Part shown: positions 770 to 11,210 of the stretch, in pieces
How the letters are laid out: the number at the start of each line of letters is the position of its first letter
How positions within the stretch are numbered: position 1 is the stretch's first letter
IMG/VR virus record: IMGVR_UViG_3300025030_001449
Span: 27,174-91,173 of that record
Strand: one strand, 5' to 3'
Source of the DNA: a virus
Length of the DNA stretch: 64,000 nucleotides
Made by a program: the position numbers and the translations under genes
The notes under the pieces: generated by a model
Told to the model about the DNA's origin: nothing
The model's input: the letters and a program-made list of their open reading frames with translations, nothing else
The model's database searches: none

Positions 770-812
770 AAAATACAAAGATAAGTAAAATTATTTAAAA
801 AGAAAGGTTGTT
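770..812 (-). promoter_or_regulatory. Bacteroidetes-type promoter for the HNH gene
   Basis: The reverse complement holds TACTTATCTTTGTATT, matching the TAnnTTTG -7 box (776-783). The -33 box is weak (a CTTTCTTTT stretch). It leaves a leader of about 135 nt before the HNH start. Confidence 0.55.
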
Positions 813-3800
813 TAATATTTTATTCCATCAATATAAATAAATCTATCTGTATTTTTAACAGAATCAAAACATTTAAATCCAATCTTTTCCAATATTTGTT
901 TTAATTCATGTTCTTTACCTTTCCATTTTGAAGAAGGTTCACAAATAAAAATATTACCAAATGGTTTTAATGTTCTATATGCTTCTTTCAAATAATCTTC
1001 ATAATTTGATCCCATTAATGATAATGAAAATACTGCAACATCCAATGTATTATCTTTTAACGGAACATTACACATATCACAAGAAATAACCTTATTATTT
1101 ATTGCAACATAATCAAAACCATATATTTTATTATCAGGTAATTCATTAGATAATAAATTCTCACCACAACCAAAATCACCAACAACCCAATCTAACCTAT
1201 TTTTTATTTTTTTAGATATTTCAATATATGGAATTTCTGACCACGTTTTTCTTTGTTCACTATAAAGAGTATGATACAAATACCATTCTTCTGGTTCTTT
1301 TTCTATTCTATCTTTTGTTGTACTGGAATGAGAAACCGACCATCTTCTATTCATTTCAGAGAAATCCCCTAATTTTCTTTTTAATTTTTCAACAAACTCT
1401 GGATTTAATGGTATTTTTAATTCTTCTCTTTCAAATGTAATAATATTATTTTTATTTATTCTATCTAACCAATCTTTAAGTTCTTGTTTGGCATCTTCAA
1501 TCATTTTACCTTTTGGTGGTAATAGACTTTTTGGAACTCTCCCATCAATTGCCAAATCTGCTAGTGTTGCTTTATATTTAACAATATTAAATCTTTTTTT
1601 ATCCCAACTCCATTGTCCGTTATCCGTATTAATAATAACTTGGGGAATATAAACATTAACTTTATCAAAAAGAGAACCCTGTCTTTTTATTCTTCCAATT
1701 AATTGATCAAATTCTGAACTTGTCCAAGGGACACATAATGGAATTAATGTATCACACACTTTTTGTATTCCATCTACGCCAGTTCCAACTGGTGCCGAAC
1801 CAATCAAAACATCAACTTCTCTTCTTTTAAATCGTTCCAGACCCGCTTTATCGTCTCCAGTATAAAATCCCACACTAAATCCCAAATCTTTCACATATTT
1901 CCCAATATCGTCAATTATTCCTGTAACATAATAAGTATAGATTAAAGTGCCAGGTTTAATATATTGCTTTATTGCATCCAATTTTGGTTTTAACAAACAT
2001 TTTTCCAAATCAAGTACACCCCCCTTCGGTACATTTTTAATATCTTCCACTAAATGAGACCCATCAATATCAATTTTTTCTATATTAACTGAAATATCAT
2101 ATTTTGGTTTGTATCTCAAACCAGTTATGGTTAATGCTTTATACATTTCAATACCATTAATTATGGATCCTTTTGTATCCAAATCGTCATGTGATTGACC
2201 AGATAATAATTCAATTAGTTTTTTTGGTTCTTCTAAATTATTAATAACTGGAGTTGCAGACATTCCTAACAAATATAAATTTTTATTTAATTCTCTTGCT
2301 TTGATAATTAACTTATTTATAACATTTCTTCTTATTGATTCTTTATCTTCATCTCTTTGTTTTACATTTTGAATCTCATCCAAAATAATGTAATCAAAAA
2401 TATTATTTTCAAATAATTGGGAAGCAATATATTCACCATCTTCTTGTTGAAATGTTTCATAATTTAATATTAAATAATTGTTTTCATTATCTTTTGGCAA
2501 AGTAATATTATATTTATCGTTTAATATATTATAAGAATTAGCAGGAACGTTATCCAAATATTTTTTAACATAAATGTTATTATTTGTGAAATATTCATTT
2601 ATGGATTTAACCCACCCATCAACAATTGAATTATTACAAATAATCAATGTATTTTTTAATTTTGCTATTCTTCCAGCTAAAATTGCTGAAAGAGTTTTTC
2701 CTGAACCTACCCCAGACCAGTTCCCATAAATTTTTTCTTTTAATAATCTGTAAGATACAAGTAACTGCATGTCATTGGGTTTATATTTGAAAATATAATC
2801 TTTTGGTATTTTAAGATTTTTCATTTCATAATATTCTGTCAAAAACTCTTTCTTAATAATTTCAAAATTTTTACCACCATGTTCATTTTTCAGTTTGTCA
2901 ATGTTTACTTCTTTTTCATTTAAAATATTATTCCAAAATTCTTTTAATTTATTTTTTAATAAAAAATCAATATTTTCATCATCAAGTGATGCCGTTATCA
3001 TTTTATTATCCAGCATTTTTAATTTTTTTATTGCATCTTCATCATTGGGAATTAATTCTTCCTCTTTTTCATTTTCCGTAATATCTAATTTATCTTTTTC
3101 TAATACTTGTTCTGTAAATTGTAATTCTTTTTCAATTTCTTTTTCTTCTTCCTCACTATCAAATTCTGTTTCATCAGTTTTTTTAACTTTGTTTATTATA
3201 TCATTTAATATATCTTTTCTATGTTGGGAACCAGATTTGGAGGAAACAAAATCTTCCAATGAGCCAAGCTCTTTAAGTTTTTTGGCTAAATTATTTGAAT
3301 TTATAATTGTTATAAGTTCAACAGAAGATAAATTAATTAATTCAGATTGAAGAGATTTTAAAAAATCAATTATTGCTGATTTATTCCATTGATGTTGGCC
3401 ATTACCCAAATAACCTAAAAAATCAGCATAACAAGTAAATTCATTTTTATATGTACGTTCTGGGATTGATGGAATATTATTTGGTTTATTTATTTTCCAC
3501 CAATTTTCAAATTCCTCACAAGATTTCAAATTAAATTTATGAACAAATTCTTTTGCTTCTTCAAATGGTAAATGTTGTTTACTTTTTTCTAAATTAGATA
3601 AAATTCCACCACCTAAAAAATTTCCCCATGAAATCCAACCTTTATTTTTATAGGCGACTCCTGGTGTTTTGGGGATATTATTTGGAAGGTTATTGTTTTT
3701 CCAATATTCTTGCCATTTTGATATTGATTTCAAATTTAATTTTTGAACATATTCTTTTGCTTCTTTAAATGGTAAAAATTTTTTCAACTGATCAGCAATT

Positions 3801-4963
3801 CTACCTGTCCCTAAAAAATCACCCATTGAAATCCACCCATGATTTTTATAAGTTTTTGATAAGGTTCTTGGTAAATTATTTGGTTTATTTATTTTCCACC
3901 AATTTTCATATTCTTTCCCAGATTTCAAATTTAATTTTTGAACATATTCTTTTGCTTCTTTAAATGGTAAAAATTTTTTCAACCGACCAGAAACTATACC
4001 AGTTCCTAAAAAATCACCCCAAGATACCCATCCACTTTTTTTATATGTATTATCTGGGTATGCTGGAATATTATCTGGTTTATTTGTTTTCCACCAATTT
4101 TCATATTCTTTCCCAGATTTCAAATTTAATTTTTGAACATATTCTTTTGCTTCTTTAAATGGTAAATGTTGTTTACTTTTATCATATCCTATCCAGTCAG
4201 CCATGCTAATAAATTCTTTCTTATAAAGTCTATAAGGATTAATAGGGATATCGTCTGGTTTTTTTGTTCTATTCCATATTTTTAATTCATGCCCACTTTT
4301 AAATCCCTGTTGTCTAACAATCTCTCTACTATCTATAAATGATTTCCATTTTCTATTGTGGTTAGAAATTTTATCCTCACCCAACCAATGATATATGTCT
4401 TGCCATCCCTTATTTTTATATACTACATTTGGATTAATTGGTAAATCAATCGGATTATGTTTTTTAAACCAAATATTATATCCAACCCAACCATTCCTAA
4501 TATTTTCTTTTCTTATTTTTTTTAATGCTTTTTGAAATGGCAAGTTCCTTTTTAACTGATAACTATACCTATCTATATTTAATAAATCACACCAAAAACT
4601 ATTCCTCTCTCCATTATATTGTTTATTTAATTCATAATATGATTTAGGGTTTCGTGGAATACCTAAATCTCTATTTTTTCGATAAAATTCTAAATAATCT
4701 TTTGGATTTTTAATATTATTTTTCCTTACTAGTATTTGTAAATTTTTAAAAGATAACATTTTATTTTTTTCATAACCACATTTTTTACAACCACATCTGA
4801 GTTTATGAGAAGATGGTGTAATATAAAATGGTCCATGTACTGGACATATTATTTTAACTTTTGTCGTAGTATTAATATATTTTACCAATGAATAATCATA
4901 TTTATCCTCGTGAATCTCTTTGAATTGTTGAATAACTTCTTCTTTGGTTAGTTTACTTGGCAT
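812..4963 (-). CDS. SNF2-like helicase fused to Rrp8-like methyltransferase, with DUF723-like and PHINT-type repeats
   Basis: A 1383-residue multidomain protein. Residues 1-65 resemble DUF723 (KYDYSLVKY, then C-x-HG and CGCKKCG). Residues about 67-545 hold about seven repeats of the phage-integrase-repeat (PHINT) type, each ending in a W(G)DFLG-like motif; four are nearly identical in DNA. An acidic linker follows near 600-660. Residues about 700-1130 are a superfamily 2, SNF2-like helicase: GVGSGKT (about 747), DEIQ (about 861), SATP (about 902), QLIGRIKRQG (about 1089). Residues about 1240-1383 match Rrp8-family methyltransferases: DFGCGE for SAM binding, CDM..VPL, and VFSLSLMGSNYEDYL. Rrp8 proteins are nucleolar rRNA m1A methyltransferases, so the likely activity is SAM-dependent RNA (or DNA) methylation coupled to ATP-driven remodelling; the substrate is unknown. 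No obvious late box lies upstream. Confidence 0.85.
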   Translation of the reverse strand: MPSKLTKEEVIQQFKEIHEDKYDYSLVKYINTTTKVKIICPVHGPFYITPSSHKLRCGCKKCGYEKNKMLSFKNLQILVRKNNIKNPKDYLEFYRKNRDLGIPRNPKSYYELNKQYNGERNSFWCDLLNIDRYSYQLKRNLPFQKALKKIRKENIRNGWVGYNIWFKKHNPIDLPINPNVVYKNKGWQDIYHWLGEDKISNHNRKWKSFIDSREIVRQQGFKSGHELKIWNRTKKPDDIPINPYRLYKKEFISMADWIGYDKSKQHLPFKEAKEYVQKLNLKSGKEYENWWKTNKPDNIPAYPDNTYKKSGWVSWGDFLGTGIVSGRLKKFLPFKEAKEYVQKLNLKSGKEYENWWKINKPNNLPRTLSKTYKNHGWISMGDFLGTGRIADQLKKFLPFKEAKEYVQKLNLKSISKWQEYWKNNNLPNNIPKTPGVAYKNKGWISWGNFLGGGILSNLEKSKQHLPFEEAKEFVHKFNLKSCEEFENWWKINKPNNIPSIPERTYKNEFTCYADFLGYLGNGQHQWNKSAIIDFLKSLQSELINLSSVELITIINSNNLAKKLKELGSLEDFVSSKSGSQHRKDILNDIINKVKKTDETEFDSEEEEKEIEKELQFTEQVLEKDKLDITENEKEEELIPNDEDAIKKLKMLDNKMITASLDDENIDFLLKNKLKEFWNNILNEKEVNIDKLKNEHGGKNFEIIKKEFLTEYYEMKNLKIPKDYIFKYKPNDMQLLVSYRLLKEKIYGNWSGVGSGKTLSAILAGRIAKLKNTLIICNNSIVDGWVKSINEYFTNNNIYVKKYLDNVPANSYNILNDKYNITLPKDNENNYLILNYETFQQEDGEYIASQLFENNIFDYIILDEIQNVKQRDEDKESIRRNVINKLIIKARELNKNLYLLGMSATPVINNLEEPKKLIELLSGQSHDDLDTKGSIINGIEMYKALTITGLRYKPKYDISVNIEKIDIDGSHLVEDIKNVPKGGVLDLEKCLLKPKLDAIKQYIKPGTLIYTYYVTGIIDDIGKYVKDLGFSVGFYTGDDKAGLERFKRREVDVLIGSAPVGTGVDGIQKVCDTLIPLCVPWTSSEFDQLIGRIKRQGSLFDKVNVYIPQVIINTDNGQWSWDKKRFNIVKYKATLADLAIDGRVPKSLLPPKGKMIEDAKQELKDWLDRINKNNIITFEREELKIPLNPEFVEKLKRKLGDFSEMNRRWSVSHSSTTKDRIEKEPEEWYLYHTLYSEQRKTWSEIPYIEISKKIKNRLDWVVGDFGCGENLLSNELPDNKIYGFDYVAINNKVISCDMCNVPLKDNTLDVAVFSLSLMGSNYEDYLKEAYRTLKPFGNIFICEPSSKWKGKEHELKQILEKIGFKCFDSVKNTDRFIYIDGIKY
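3400..4190 (-). repeat. tandem PHINT-type coding repeats
   Basis: About 190-200 bp units inside the helicase gene. The stretch coding for LPFKEAKEYVQKLNLKS recurs three times almost identically, near 3720-3775, 3925-3975 and 4120-4170, with a diverged copy near 3530-3570. Recent tandem duplication is likely. Confidence 0.85.
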
Positions 4964-7644: not shown

Positions 7645-7780
7645 TTTCTTTTTGTTTATTTAAATATTCTATTATTAATCTCTCAATTAATCTGGACTTA
7701 TTTATTAATGTAAAATTTGAATAATTTTTTAATCTATCAATTATTTTTTCTTCAACTGTAAATGTTACTTTTTTTCTCAT
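7622..7780 (-). CDS. ribbon-helix-helix DNA-binding protein
   Basis: 52 residues from ATG 7778-7780; a longer frame to 7822 would run through the late-type box and is rejected. KKVTFTVEEKIIDRLKNYS followed by NKSRLIERLIIEYL fits one beta strand and two helices of the CopG/Arc class. Its 3' end overlaps the endonuclease start by 23 bp, so the pair is probably co-transcribed. It may regulate the endonuclease or other phage promoters. Confidence 0.6.
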   Translation of the reverse strand: MRKKVTFTVEEKIIDRLKNYSNFTLINKSRLIERLIIEYLNKQKENDINKNS

Positions 7781-7797
7781 AATTATATTTCTTTTAC

Positions 7798-7807
7798 ATA
7801 TAAATAT
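7798..7807 (-). promoter_or_regulatory. late-type box
   Basis: ATATAAATAT on the plus strand, 17 nt from the start of the ribbon-helix-helix gene, and preceded (in minus direction) by the 3' element shared with two other structural genes. Confidence 0.5.
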
Positions 7808-7814
7808 TACATAA

Positions 7815-7856
7815 AATAGCAAAAGACCATTTATTTTAAATTATTTTTTAAAAAAG
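7815..7856 (-). repeat. 3' element shared by three structural genes, copy 1
   Basis: Directly after the fibre gene stop lies an AT-rich stretch containing AGCAAAAGACC (plus strand). The same kind of sequence follows the genes that end at 11291 and 26118, always between a structural-gene stop and a late-type box. Confidence 0.5.
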
Positions 7857-9038
7857 TTAGATTTTGATTTGTATATCGAAAACCACAATATTATTTTTAC
7901 TTTTGGGAACGCTTTCTGAAGTCTTGGCGATAGCTATAAGTTCTGGTGGATTCTTGCCATTATATAACCCAATTTCTGTAATATATAAATTGTCTGAATT
8001 TGTTGCGTTAACCATTCCTACCCCCCAAACATCCTCGGCGGTTTTATTAGTTGAAACGTTAAATTCTTGGAGGTCTCCTATGCAAATTATGTGCTGTATA
8101 AATTCTGTGACAAATGATCGAAACTGTATCTGGGCATTAGTAGTGATTCCAGTTTTAGTGAAATTGGTCCCAAACTGTTTTTCTAGTTCTTGAACTATAA
8201 CTGGATCATGAATTGTACAAAATCCGGCTGAAAGATATGCTACCCCCAGAATTAAATCTTTTTTCTTTCCAGCTGGAGTATCATCCATAAAATTTGCTAA
8301 AAATTTCCCACCCTTATCAAATGGTCTTTTATTTGATTGTCCTGTTGCCCATGACTTTGCAGTGTCACTATTTGGATTACTTGTTCTTGCACTTAAAGCA
8401 TCACTGAATAAAAATGCAACATTAGAGGGGTTATCTAAACTTGGTCCTCCAAATTCATGTGATTGAGGTTGTGGATCACTATAAAGTGAATCTGGGTCCA
8501 AAATACTTATAGGATCATCAAAATAACTACTATATAAATTTATTGTTGTTCCCCCCGATGGTACAGTTAATTTAATAGATTTACCATCAATTAATTCTCC
8601 ATAATGGTTTTTAGGTATATCAACAACAACTATTTTATTTTGATTCCCAACGCCTGAAAATGCAGTATTACTAAAACCGCCATTAGCAAATGTAGTTCCA
8701 GTGAATTTTATTTTTTGTTCATTTGTAATAGGATAATTAAAAGAAGAGAATAAATTCCCATATTGACGACTTGTCAAATCTGTTCTATCAGCAATAGTAA
8801 AACTAATATGATTAGATTTTGGTGAACCACTACTATCTAAAGTAATTAAATTCCCAGAATTCAACCATACTCTTTCTTTTTTAAATCCACCAGATGTTTG
8901 GTCAACTTGTTTTAAAAACGGGGCCAAGGAATTATCTTGTGGAGGTGGTGGTGGAGTTGGTTCAGGTTCTTGACCCTGCAATAGTTGACCTTTATCTTTT
9001 ATAAAATTTGGATCTGTAAGATTTAGATTTACTGGCAT
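7857..9038 (-). CDS. tail fibre or baseplate structural protein
   Basis: 393 residues. A proline-rich linker (PEPTPPPPPQD) follows the first 25 residues, then a glycine- and serine-rich beta-type sequence typical of fibres. The C-terminal ITEIGLYNGKNPPELIAIAK resembles the end of the product of 11291-13513 (ISEVGIYDNNRNLVAVGKI), suggesting a shared C-terminal domain. It is the last gene of the long structural run. Confidence 0.65.
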   Translation of the reverse strand: MPVNLNLTDPNFIKDKGQLLQGQEPEPTPPPPPQDNSLAPFLKQVDQTSGGFKKERVWLNSGNLITLDSSGSPKSNHISFTIADRTDLTSRQYGNLFSSFNYPITNEQKIKFTGTTFANGGFSNTAFSGVGNQNKIVVVDIPKNHYGELIDGKSIKLTVPSGGTTINLYSSYFDDPISILDPDSLYSDPQPQSHEFGGPSLDNPSNVAFLFSDALSARTSNPNSDTAKSWATGQSNKRPFDKGGKFLANFMDDTPAGKKKDLILGVAYLSAGFCTIHDPVIVQELEKQFGTNFTKTGITTNAQIQFRSFVTEFIQHIICIGDLQEFNVSTNKTAEDVWGVGMVNATNSDNLYITEIGLYNGKNPPELIAIAKTSESVPKSKNNIVVFDIQIKI

Positions 9039-10313: not shown

Positions 10314-11096
10314 TTAAACATATTCCCATTTATACCCTCCAGCCGTTTTAAATCTCTTTCTACAACAATTACAAATAACACTAGATATTATTCCTGTTTC
10401 TTTGCCTGCTATTTCTAAACTTTTAAATTGTTTAATAAAATTACCATTTTTATCATATTGATTAACTGATCTAGGATCAAATACGTTTTTTTCATGTTTA
10501 TGATCTTCTAAATTTAATTTTTCTCCTTTATATTTAAAAATATATCCGCCGGCAGTTTTCCTTCTTTTTTTATTTCTACAAACATTACTTATTTGTCCAT
10601 CACTGATATTTAATATTTTTCCAGCTTCTTTTATACTGTTCCATGTTTTAATAAAATTACCTTGTAAATCATATTGATCAACTGGTTTTAATGGATTAAT
10701 ATTTCGTCCCATCCTAGATTTACTTATATTTTTACAATGTTTTTTCGAAAATCCTACACCATATGCCCAATGATTTTTACCACTACCAAATCCAGTTCCG
10801 CCAGGAGTATTATTTGTTAATTTAAGCCCCCACGCCTTCATTTGTTCAATCCAATATGGTTCCCAAAATTCCCACTCATCTTCTGGAACAATATCTAATA
10901 TTTTTAATTCTGGCTCTATGCCTTCTTTTATTAATTTATATATCCAACGTTCATTATGTGTTCTCTCTTTATTAGAATTCTTTTTTTGTGATATTAAAAT
11001 ATGACTTCGTAATCTTCTTTTTACTTTATCAGTTTTGCCAACATAGCGAATTTCATTCGTTCTAGGATCTGATAAAGTGTAAATAAATATATCCAT
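10314..11096 (-). CDS. GIY-YIG homing endonuclease with NUMOD1-like repeats
   Basis: 260 residues from ATG 11094-11096 (MDIFIYTLSDP), where GIY-YIG domains normally begin. A TTG start at 11150 would add 18 residues and begin inside the structured leader. The N terminus shows IYTLSDP ... RYVGKT and the conserved arginines (KRRLRSH). Two C-terminal DNA-binding repeats follow: VDQYDLQGNFIKTWNSIKEA ... AGGYIFKY and VNQYDKNGNFIKQFKSLEIA ... AGGYKWEY. It is a free-standing selfish nuclease placed between structural genes. Confidence 0.85.
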   Translation of the reverse strand: MDIFIYTLSDPRTNEIRYVGKTDKVKRRLRSHILISQKKNSNKERTHNERWIYKLIKEGIEPELKILDIVPEDEWEFWEPYWIEQMKAWGLKLTNNTPGGTGFGSGKNHWAYGVGFSKKHCKNISKSRMGRNINPLKPVDQYDLQGNFIKTWNSIKEAGKILNISDGQISNVCRNKKRRKTAGGYIFKYKGEKLNLEDHKHEKNVFDPRSVNQYDKNGNFIKQFKSLEIAGKETGIISSVICNCCRKRFKTAGGYKWEYV

Positions 11097-11148
11097 TTTA
11101 TTATATTTCTTAAAATAAAATCCCTCACATTTATTGGGTAATCTATAC

Positions 11149-11210
11149 AATAGTTAAATTGAAGAGAAATAAATGGTATTGGGATTTTAAATATCTTATT
11201 TTTAACTATT
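11149..11210 (-). ncRNA. structured leader element, copy A
   Basis: A perfect 10-bp inverted repeat (AATAGTTAAA at 11149-11158, TTTAACTATT at 11201-11210) encloses 42 nt whose core resembles copies B (25979-26042) and C (39412-39509). On the minus strand it lies between a late-type box and the GIY-YIG start, so it would be part of a 5' leader of about 125 nt. The RNA nature is inferred from the conserved helix. Confidence 0.5.

Follow-up and report, generated by a model that had tools for sequence, protein, structure and literature searches.

The stretch of DNA analyzed here (the window; 64,000 nucleotides of a virus contig from IMG/VR) carries a gene, designated helMT, which forms a single uninterrupted ORF of 1383 aa on the minus strand (812-4963). 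The following features were assigned to the gene and its product:

812..4963, minus strand: helMT, whole gene, encoding an array, a Snf2-type motor and a Rrp8-type methyltransferase (1383 aa; relatives with the same order)
4763..4954, minus strand: N-terminal DUF723-like zinc-knuckle module, residues 4-67 (phrog_681, 6.7e-13; Pfam DUF723, E 0.31)
3377..4753, minus strand: seven INT_rpt (PHINT-type) repeats, residues 71-529 (repeat HMM)
2894..3376, minus strand: linker, about residues 530-690, its second half acidic and of low complexity (poorly conserved in the family alignment)
1574..2782, minus strand: Snf2-type SF2 motor with two RecA lobes and complete motifs, about residues 728-1130 (Pfam, fold)
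815..1387, minus strand: Rrp8-type SAM-dependent methyltransferase, residues 1193-1383 (Pfam, PDB sequence, profile and fold matches)
1004..1030, minus strand: FSLSLMGSN, the Rrp8 signature at the motif-IV position (sequence)

The C-terminus of helMT is a true Rrp8-type methyltransferase. Residues 1193-1378 match Pfam Methyltransf_8 (PF05148) with 135 bits (cut-off 27; E 4.7e-39), and generic methyltransferase models score far below it, the next best at 27.8 bits. In a PDB sequence search, human RRP8 (2zfu) was the best match (4e-30; runner-up 0.03), and the methyltransferase profile matched 2zfu with 180 bits (E 4.5e-52). The same structure was also the top fold match, with a TM score of 0.82 (by target length) at 2.3 A. 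A sequence-only reading of this DNA had assigned the domain to Rrp8 from motifs that are indeed found where it placed them, and had suggested both the Methyltransf_8 search and the fold comparison with human RRP8; the better fit to generic DNA methyltransferases that it considered as an alternative was not observed, as the Rrp8 match is far better. Rrp8 residues outside the SAM motif (YH, W, P, CD, LxLxGxN and EAxR) are present in helMT. In addition, the methyltransferase domain has 17 residues that do not vary among 32 relatives, and human RRP8 shares all 17, so that, judged from sequence, the chemistry of helMT is probably conserved with that of Rrp8.

The motor has a fold of the double-stranded DNA Snf2 type and is predicted to track along double-stranded DNA. 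SNF2-rel_dom (29.3 bits vs cut-off 24.9) and ResIII (38.6 vs 22.5) both match above their Pfam cut-offs, and Helicase_C lies slightly under its own (23.1 vs 23.5). As the sequence-only reading had proposed for a Snf2-like helicase, the motifs are intact (I, GVGSGKT at 751; II, DEIQ at 862; III, SATP at 902; V, GTGVDG at 1060; VI, QLIGRIKRQG at 1087), and these catalytic motifs are conserved throughout the helMT family. Besides 2zfu, the top fold matches were structures of Mot1, Chd1, Ino80 and Isw1 on DNA or nucleosomes, and ZorD. A search of BFVD gave only helicases among the top matches.

The seven repeats of the N-terminal array were counted with a repeat HMM, in agreement with the previous estimate of about seven PHINT-type repeats; Pfam INT_rpt itself reaches 14.2 bits in helMT vs a cut-off of 26.5, and 42.3 bits in the relative L007. 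The claim of a DUF723-like zinc module fared less evenly: Pfam DUF723 stays below its cut-off (11.5 bits vs 20.9), but residues 4-67 match the related phage endonuclease family phrog_681, and DUF723-type modules similar to that of helMT occur in phage endonucleases. Among the relatives, one position is occupied by 4-12 copies of INT_rpt, 1-9 DUF723-like modules or 1-9 copies of DUF4379. These three repeat families have been exchanged, with at least four changes of array type on the tree. In L012, L016 and L052 the array is an ORF of its own immediately upstream, and two relatives carry a sigma-70 region 4-like HTH. A fold search with the INT_rpt array returned nothing with E below 0.1 (model pTM 0.28); as no solved structure matches this model, DNA binding by the array remains putative.

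Rrp8 has been treated as a eukaryotic ribosome enzyme, residing in the human and yeast nucleolus. RNA is the only tested substrate of Rrp8, a point against the genome-conflict reading favored below. Eukaryotic Rrp8 introduces m1A into helix 25.1 of 25S/28S rRNA (PMC6085284), and this activity, together with the shared active-site residues, would fit a helMT that methylates host rRNA, tRNA or mRNA for RNA modification or translation takeover. We consider such a role decidedly unlikely, given the dsDNA Snf2 fold of the motor and the array modules, which are those of DNA endonucleases; moreover, loss of m1A645 acts via the expansion segments ES7b/c and eL32. Bacteria are not known to possess these eukaryote-specific structures, to which the rRNA site is tied. 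The methylation of rRNA for translation takeover, as suggested from the sequence at first, is thus not borne out. Defence evasion, the other use suggested there, may still apply.

The fusion is encoded by about 20 IMG/VR contigs, by three plasmids and by more than 20 genomes of bacteria and archaea, and other genomes from three phyla contained it at frequencies of 0/394, 5/291 and 2/299. The relatives on viral contigs were found by means of a two-row alignment with human RRP8; patterns derived from a single sequence were too specific and gave no matches. Nearly every full-length relative has the motor and methyltransferase in one protein, so the separate genes contemplated by the sequence-only reading are not the rule, and the search of phage sequences for this domain order, which it had recommended, recovered the IMG/VR contigs mentioned above. 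The recurrence of the same fusion in many relatives also indicates that helMT is not an assembly artefact. Virus and cell copies are interleaved in the tree, with at least five switches, and no copy of the motor-plus-methylase part was found in isolate phages. The earlier supposition of a phage invention is not supported, given the occurrence of helMT in bacteria, archaea and plasmids; it belongs to a rare, horizontally moving family of three-part proteins. Literature searches on Rrp8 with phage, SNF2 or Methyltransf_8 yielded no description of the fusion, and Rrp8 goes unmentioned in a survey of 224 jumbo phages, in keeping with the earlier view of an unusual combination. The rare and patchy distribution of the fusion over phages, plasmids and bacterial and archaeal chromosomes suggests an undescribed mobile nucleic-acid-modifying system.

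Genes of mobile elements are found next to several copies. HNH, GIY-YIG and other homing-type ORFs lie close to helMT in the window, as they do in L004 and L007. An IS1595-type transposase is located immediately upstream in L011, L021 and L075 have similar ORFs, and some copies are broken or remnant. These observations are consistent with helMT as a selfish-gene accessory, kin to free-standing homing elements, in which the array would pick the target and the motor and methylase would aid spread or repair. Such a role is nevertheless very unlikely in our estimation, since no nuclease domain was found in the protein, the preservation of its catalytic residues suggests that it has an independent function, and homing genes are common along the whole contig anyway. 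RuvC-like and primase-like genes are also found near helMT, and in jumbo phages Snf2 helicases serve in recombination and lie near RNA polymerase genes (PMC7824862), which could point to a transcription or recombination helper, that is, a RapA/UvsW-like motor with a regulatory methylase. This we regard as more improbable still, because a core function is hard to reconcile with a patchy family that also occurs on plasmids and chromosomes and swaps its arrays.

Defence-type genes adjoin a few relatives: PDC-S02 in L022 and L023, the KAP NTPase PDC-S49 in L028 (with DarTG nearby) and FRG in L026. PADLOC detected defence families in the 20 kb around helMT, and likewise in controls taken from those genomes. 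No full-length defence-protein match to helMT itself was obtained with PADLOC, only weak partial helicase matches (DrmD, 3.6e-05; PbeA). Near helMT, the contig also carries further genes of DNA metabolism, among them at least two for N6/N4 DNA methylases, and the motor is weakly matched by the DarB-family phrog_10089 (5.6e-05). As phages and plasmids also couple a Snf2 ATPase to a methylase of the adenine type (PMC5512222), phage helMT might mark the phage's own DNA as the motor moves along it, shielding it against host restriction in the way proposed for the DarB-type dyad of phage P1. We judge this unlikely: the methylase does not belong to the N6-adenine class, with no (N/D)PP(Y/F/W) motif in the whole protein (all 1383 aa), m1A would harm the genome that carried it, and at most of the chromosomal loci seen no restriction enzyme is paired with helMT.

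Because m1A prevents Watson-Crick pairing, it would disable its target rather than protect it, which makes attack on a competing genome the most likely use. We thus tentatively favor, at somewhat below an even chance, that helMT is a mobile, array-targeted Snf2 motor that delivers an adenine methyltransferase in genome conflicts. In this scheme, the array would recognize a target in nucleic acid, most likely in DNA, from which the motor would track onward along double-stranded DNA, and the methyltransferase would methylate adenine, with N1 the probable position by analogy with Rrp8. Snf2 motors normally work without strand separation, and the N1 of adenine is buried in double-stranded DNA, so that methylation of plain double-stranded DNA would need base flipping. 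The methylated substrate may be DNA, or RNA held at DNA as a nascent transcript or R-loop. A phage-borne helMT would hit a rival phage or the host, a chromosome- or plasmid-borne one would hit invading DNA, and swapping of the array would retarget the protein. The prediction that follows is an m1A or other adenine mark used as a weapon.

A further proposal concerns the origin of eukaryotic Rrp8. In 395 genomes of two phyla, PF05148 matches of at least 127 bits occurred in frames of the fused kind (869-1514 aa) and in one broken frame of 285 aa, and every other match had at most 41.5 bits. It is conceivable, although rather doubtful, that eukaryotic Rrp8 descends from the methyltransferase end of a mobile prokaryotic Snf2-Rrp8 protein, the prokaryotic enzyme tracking DNA to put m1A on rival nucleic acid. 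Human RRP8 formed a long branch with no supported grouping in the methyltransferase tree. If true, a mobile prokaryotic enzyme would be the source of eukaryotic Rrp8, and a genome-conflict weapon would have turned into a ribosome-modification enzyme.

Comparison with known systems places helMT among several of them. It has in common with Rrp8/nucleomethylin (PF05148) the whole catalytic domain, including the pre-SAM region SxxT...YH...W..P; eukaryotic Rrp8, however, is nucleolar and has no motor, and the fusion to a Snf2 motor makes helMT a member of the Methyltransf_8 domain family, not a Rrp8 orthologue in architecture. With phage homing endonucleases it shares the N-terminal DUF723, INT_rpt and DUF4379 modules, a motor and a methylase standing in place of the nuclease. 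The DarB-type dyad likewise joins a Snf2 motor to an adenine methylase in phages and plasmids (PMC5512222), whereas helMT has a C-terminal methylase of the Rrp8 family without an NPPY motif, a repeat array in front, and no large polyvalent protein. Similarly, BREX, DISARM and ARMADA (PMC12839542, PMC12458937) are prokaryotic conflict systems with a Snf2 helicase and a methylase. None of their core partner genes was seen in the regions inspected around helMT genes, and their methylase is PglX-like, while that of helMT is Rrp8-type and part of one fused protein. With the complete catalytic domain of Rrp8 on a motor that moves among prokaryotes and has retargetable arrays, helMT adds a new methylase type to the Snf2-methylase systems known from phages and plasmids.

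The window comprises bases 27174-91173 of a virus record 91,173 bases long, and the presence of structural genes identifies it as phage DNA. Its tail sheath protein (970 aa) matches phrog_23 at 4e-65, and in tblastn comparisons the structural genes are closest to Microcystis and Flavobacterium phages. The fused gene helMT is flanked on one side by one HNH-type and one primase-like ORF plus two N6_N4 DNA methylase genes, and on the opposite side by one RuvC-like ORF and one for a homing endonuclease. The features referred to are as follows (L003 belongs to the same record; its two methylase genes lie just outside the window):

812-4963, minus strand: helMT, a single ORF of 1383 aa
6490-7644: homing-endonuclease-type ORF (DUF7487)
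10314-11150: GIY-YIG/NUMOD1 ORF
L003:9528-10334 and L003:6942-7613: two N6_N4 DNA methylase genes

Homing-type genes are abundant on this contig. Judged by sequence alone, the same record also holds IS200/IS605 TnpB-like ORFs (L003:706-1845, minus; 7670-8848, plus) and, at L002:270-5964, a run of sugar/cell-surface type genes (radical-SAM-like, aminotransferase-like, NAD-dependent epimerase-like and methyltransferase-like).

The sequence-only reading had assigned the C-terminal part of helMT to the Rrp8 type and the remainder to a SNF2-like helicase with complete motifs and about seven PHINT-type repeats, and all three assignments were upheld. Residues 1193-1378 match Methyltransf_8 at 135 bits against a cut-off of 27, and human RRP8 was the sole solid match in the PDB sequence search (4e-30; next, 0.03). 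Human RRP8 scored 180 bits (E 4.5e-52) against a profile built from 32 helMT relatives, and it is identical at 17 of the 17 methyltransferase-domain residues invariant across all of them. When the AlphaFold2 model, which covers residues 640-1383 (mean pLDDT 84), was compared with PDB folds, human RRP8 ranked first (TM 0.82 by target length, 2.3 A), followed by Snf2-type motors acting on DNA or nucleosomes; the Zorya helicase ZorD is also among the matches. Motifs I, II, III, V and VI were all found in the motor and are conserved among relatives. The (N/D)PP(Y/F/W) motif of DNA N-methyltransferases is absent from the whole window helMT protein.

In a sample of 395 genomes from two phyla, PF05148 matches fell into two separate score classes: an upper one (127-172 bits) of fused-kind frames of 869-1514 aa plus one broken 285-aa frame, and a lower one (at most 41.5 bits) of generic methyltransferases matching only part of the model. 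True Rrp8-type domains in this sample are thus confined to the helMT family. This is suggestive as to where eukaryotic Rrp8 came from, although human RRP8 itself obtained no placement on the methyltransferase tree.

At the N-terminus, a zinc-knuckle module that also occurs in phage endonucleases (residues 4-67) precedes seven PHINT-type (INT_rpt) repeats at residues 71-530. Copies 4 and 5 (window 3776-4162) share 99% identity over the first 78 bases and 84% over the entire repeat, indicating that one half-unit is homogenised while the other varies; the variable half may mark the target-determining part. In relatives, the array position is occupied by INT_rpt (4-12 copies), DUF723-like (1-9) or DUF4379 (1-9) repeats, with an additional sigma-70 region 4-like HTH at two loci (L086, L039), and at three loci (L012, L016, L052) the array lies on separate ORFs immediately upstream. 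At L016:944-7884, on a 308-kb phage contig, INT_rpt and DUF723-like repeats run over several ORFs and abut helMT upstream. From its sequence, the helMT neighbour L038:7653-9881 pairs DUF4379-like repeats, an array type also used by helMT relatives, with an apparent Vsr/DUF559-type nuclease end.

Successive rounds of an alignment-query search in IMG/VR yielded 18, 20 and finally 23 loci, on contigs of up to 379 kb, and nearly all full-length members are fused as in the window. Among 84,980 species genomes, 36 loci were picked up by a pattern-based scan, which makes the count a lower bound; they lie in Bacteroidota, Spirochaetota, Chloroflexota, Cyanobacteriota, Chlamydiota, Planctomycetota, Myxococcota, Thermoplasmatota, Nitrososphaerota and others. 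Plasmid copies occur in Crinalium (one) and Rhodococcus (two), annotated as zinc-ribbon domain-containing protein. Within phyla, helMT was found in 0 of 394 (phylum of genome G001), 5 of 291 (cyanobacterial, G008; two without the methyltransferase) and 2 of 299 (G025) other genomes. Two of the cyanobacterial genomes surveyed carry motors lacking the Rrp8 domain (L105:6881-10696 and L106:9735-14543); both are much extended at the N-terminus, and in one of the extensions a sigma-like HTH motif was recognised by eye. A few loci contain nothing but a remnant of the methyltransferase or a broken copy.

Virus and cell copies interleave in a 43-row tree, whose starred branches cannot be explained by fewer than five switches. 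The window helMT clusters with two virus contigs and one Flavobacteriaceae genome (100/100). The position of the IMG/VR member L086 is nearly identical to that of a cellular copy, so a few contigs labelled viral may be misclassified. An IS1595 (ISXO2)-type transposase lies upstream of helMT at L011:5932-6873, and ORFs judged similar by eye lie at L021:5052-5978 and L075:977-1930. At some cellular loci, helMT is directly adjoined by PDC-S02 (L022 and L023, an Mrr nuclease domain being present in the latter), PDC-S49 (L028, where DarTG follows at a greater distance) or FRG (L026); PADLOC families match among 126 helMT neighbours and likewise among 115 control proteins.

The architecture would place a recognition array before a DNA-tracking motor and an adenine methylase. 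Retention of the Rrp8 active-site residues suggests m1A chemistry. Since m1A blocks base pairing, the natural reading is that helMT would interfere with the genome or the transcripts of a rival, consistent with the mobility and the three interchangeable arrays; substrate, strand and direction of conflict are what we infer. The rRNA function known from eukaryotes is not easily transferred, because the mark acts there through ES7b/c and eL32, which are not known from bacteria.

The sequence-only reading took the combination to be undescribed, and among the papers searched we found none that connects Rrp8 to phages or to Snf2 in such a way; a jumbo-phage survey of 224 genomes leaves Rrp8 unmentioned. 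Like DarB (PMC5512222), helMT is a Snf2-methylase dyad, but its methylase is of the Rrp8 type, without the DarB methylase motif, and it has a repeat array in addition.
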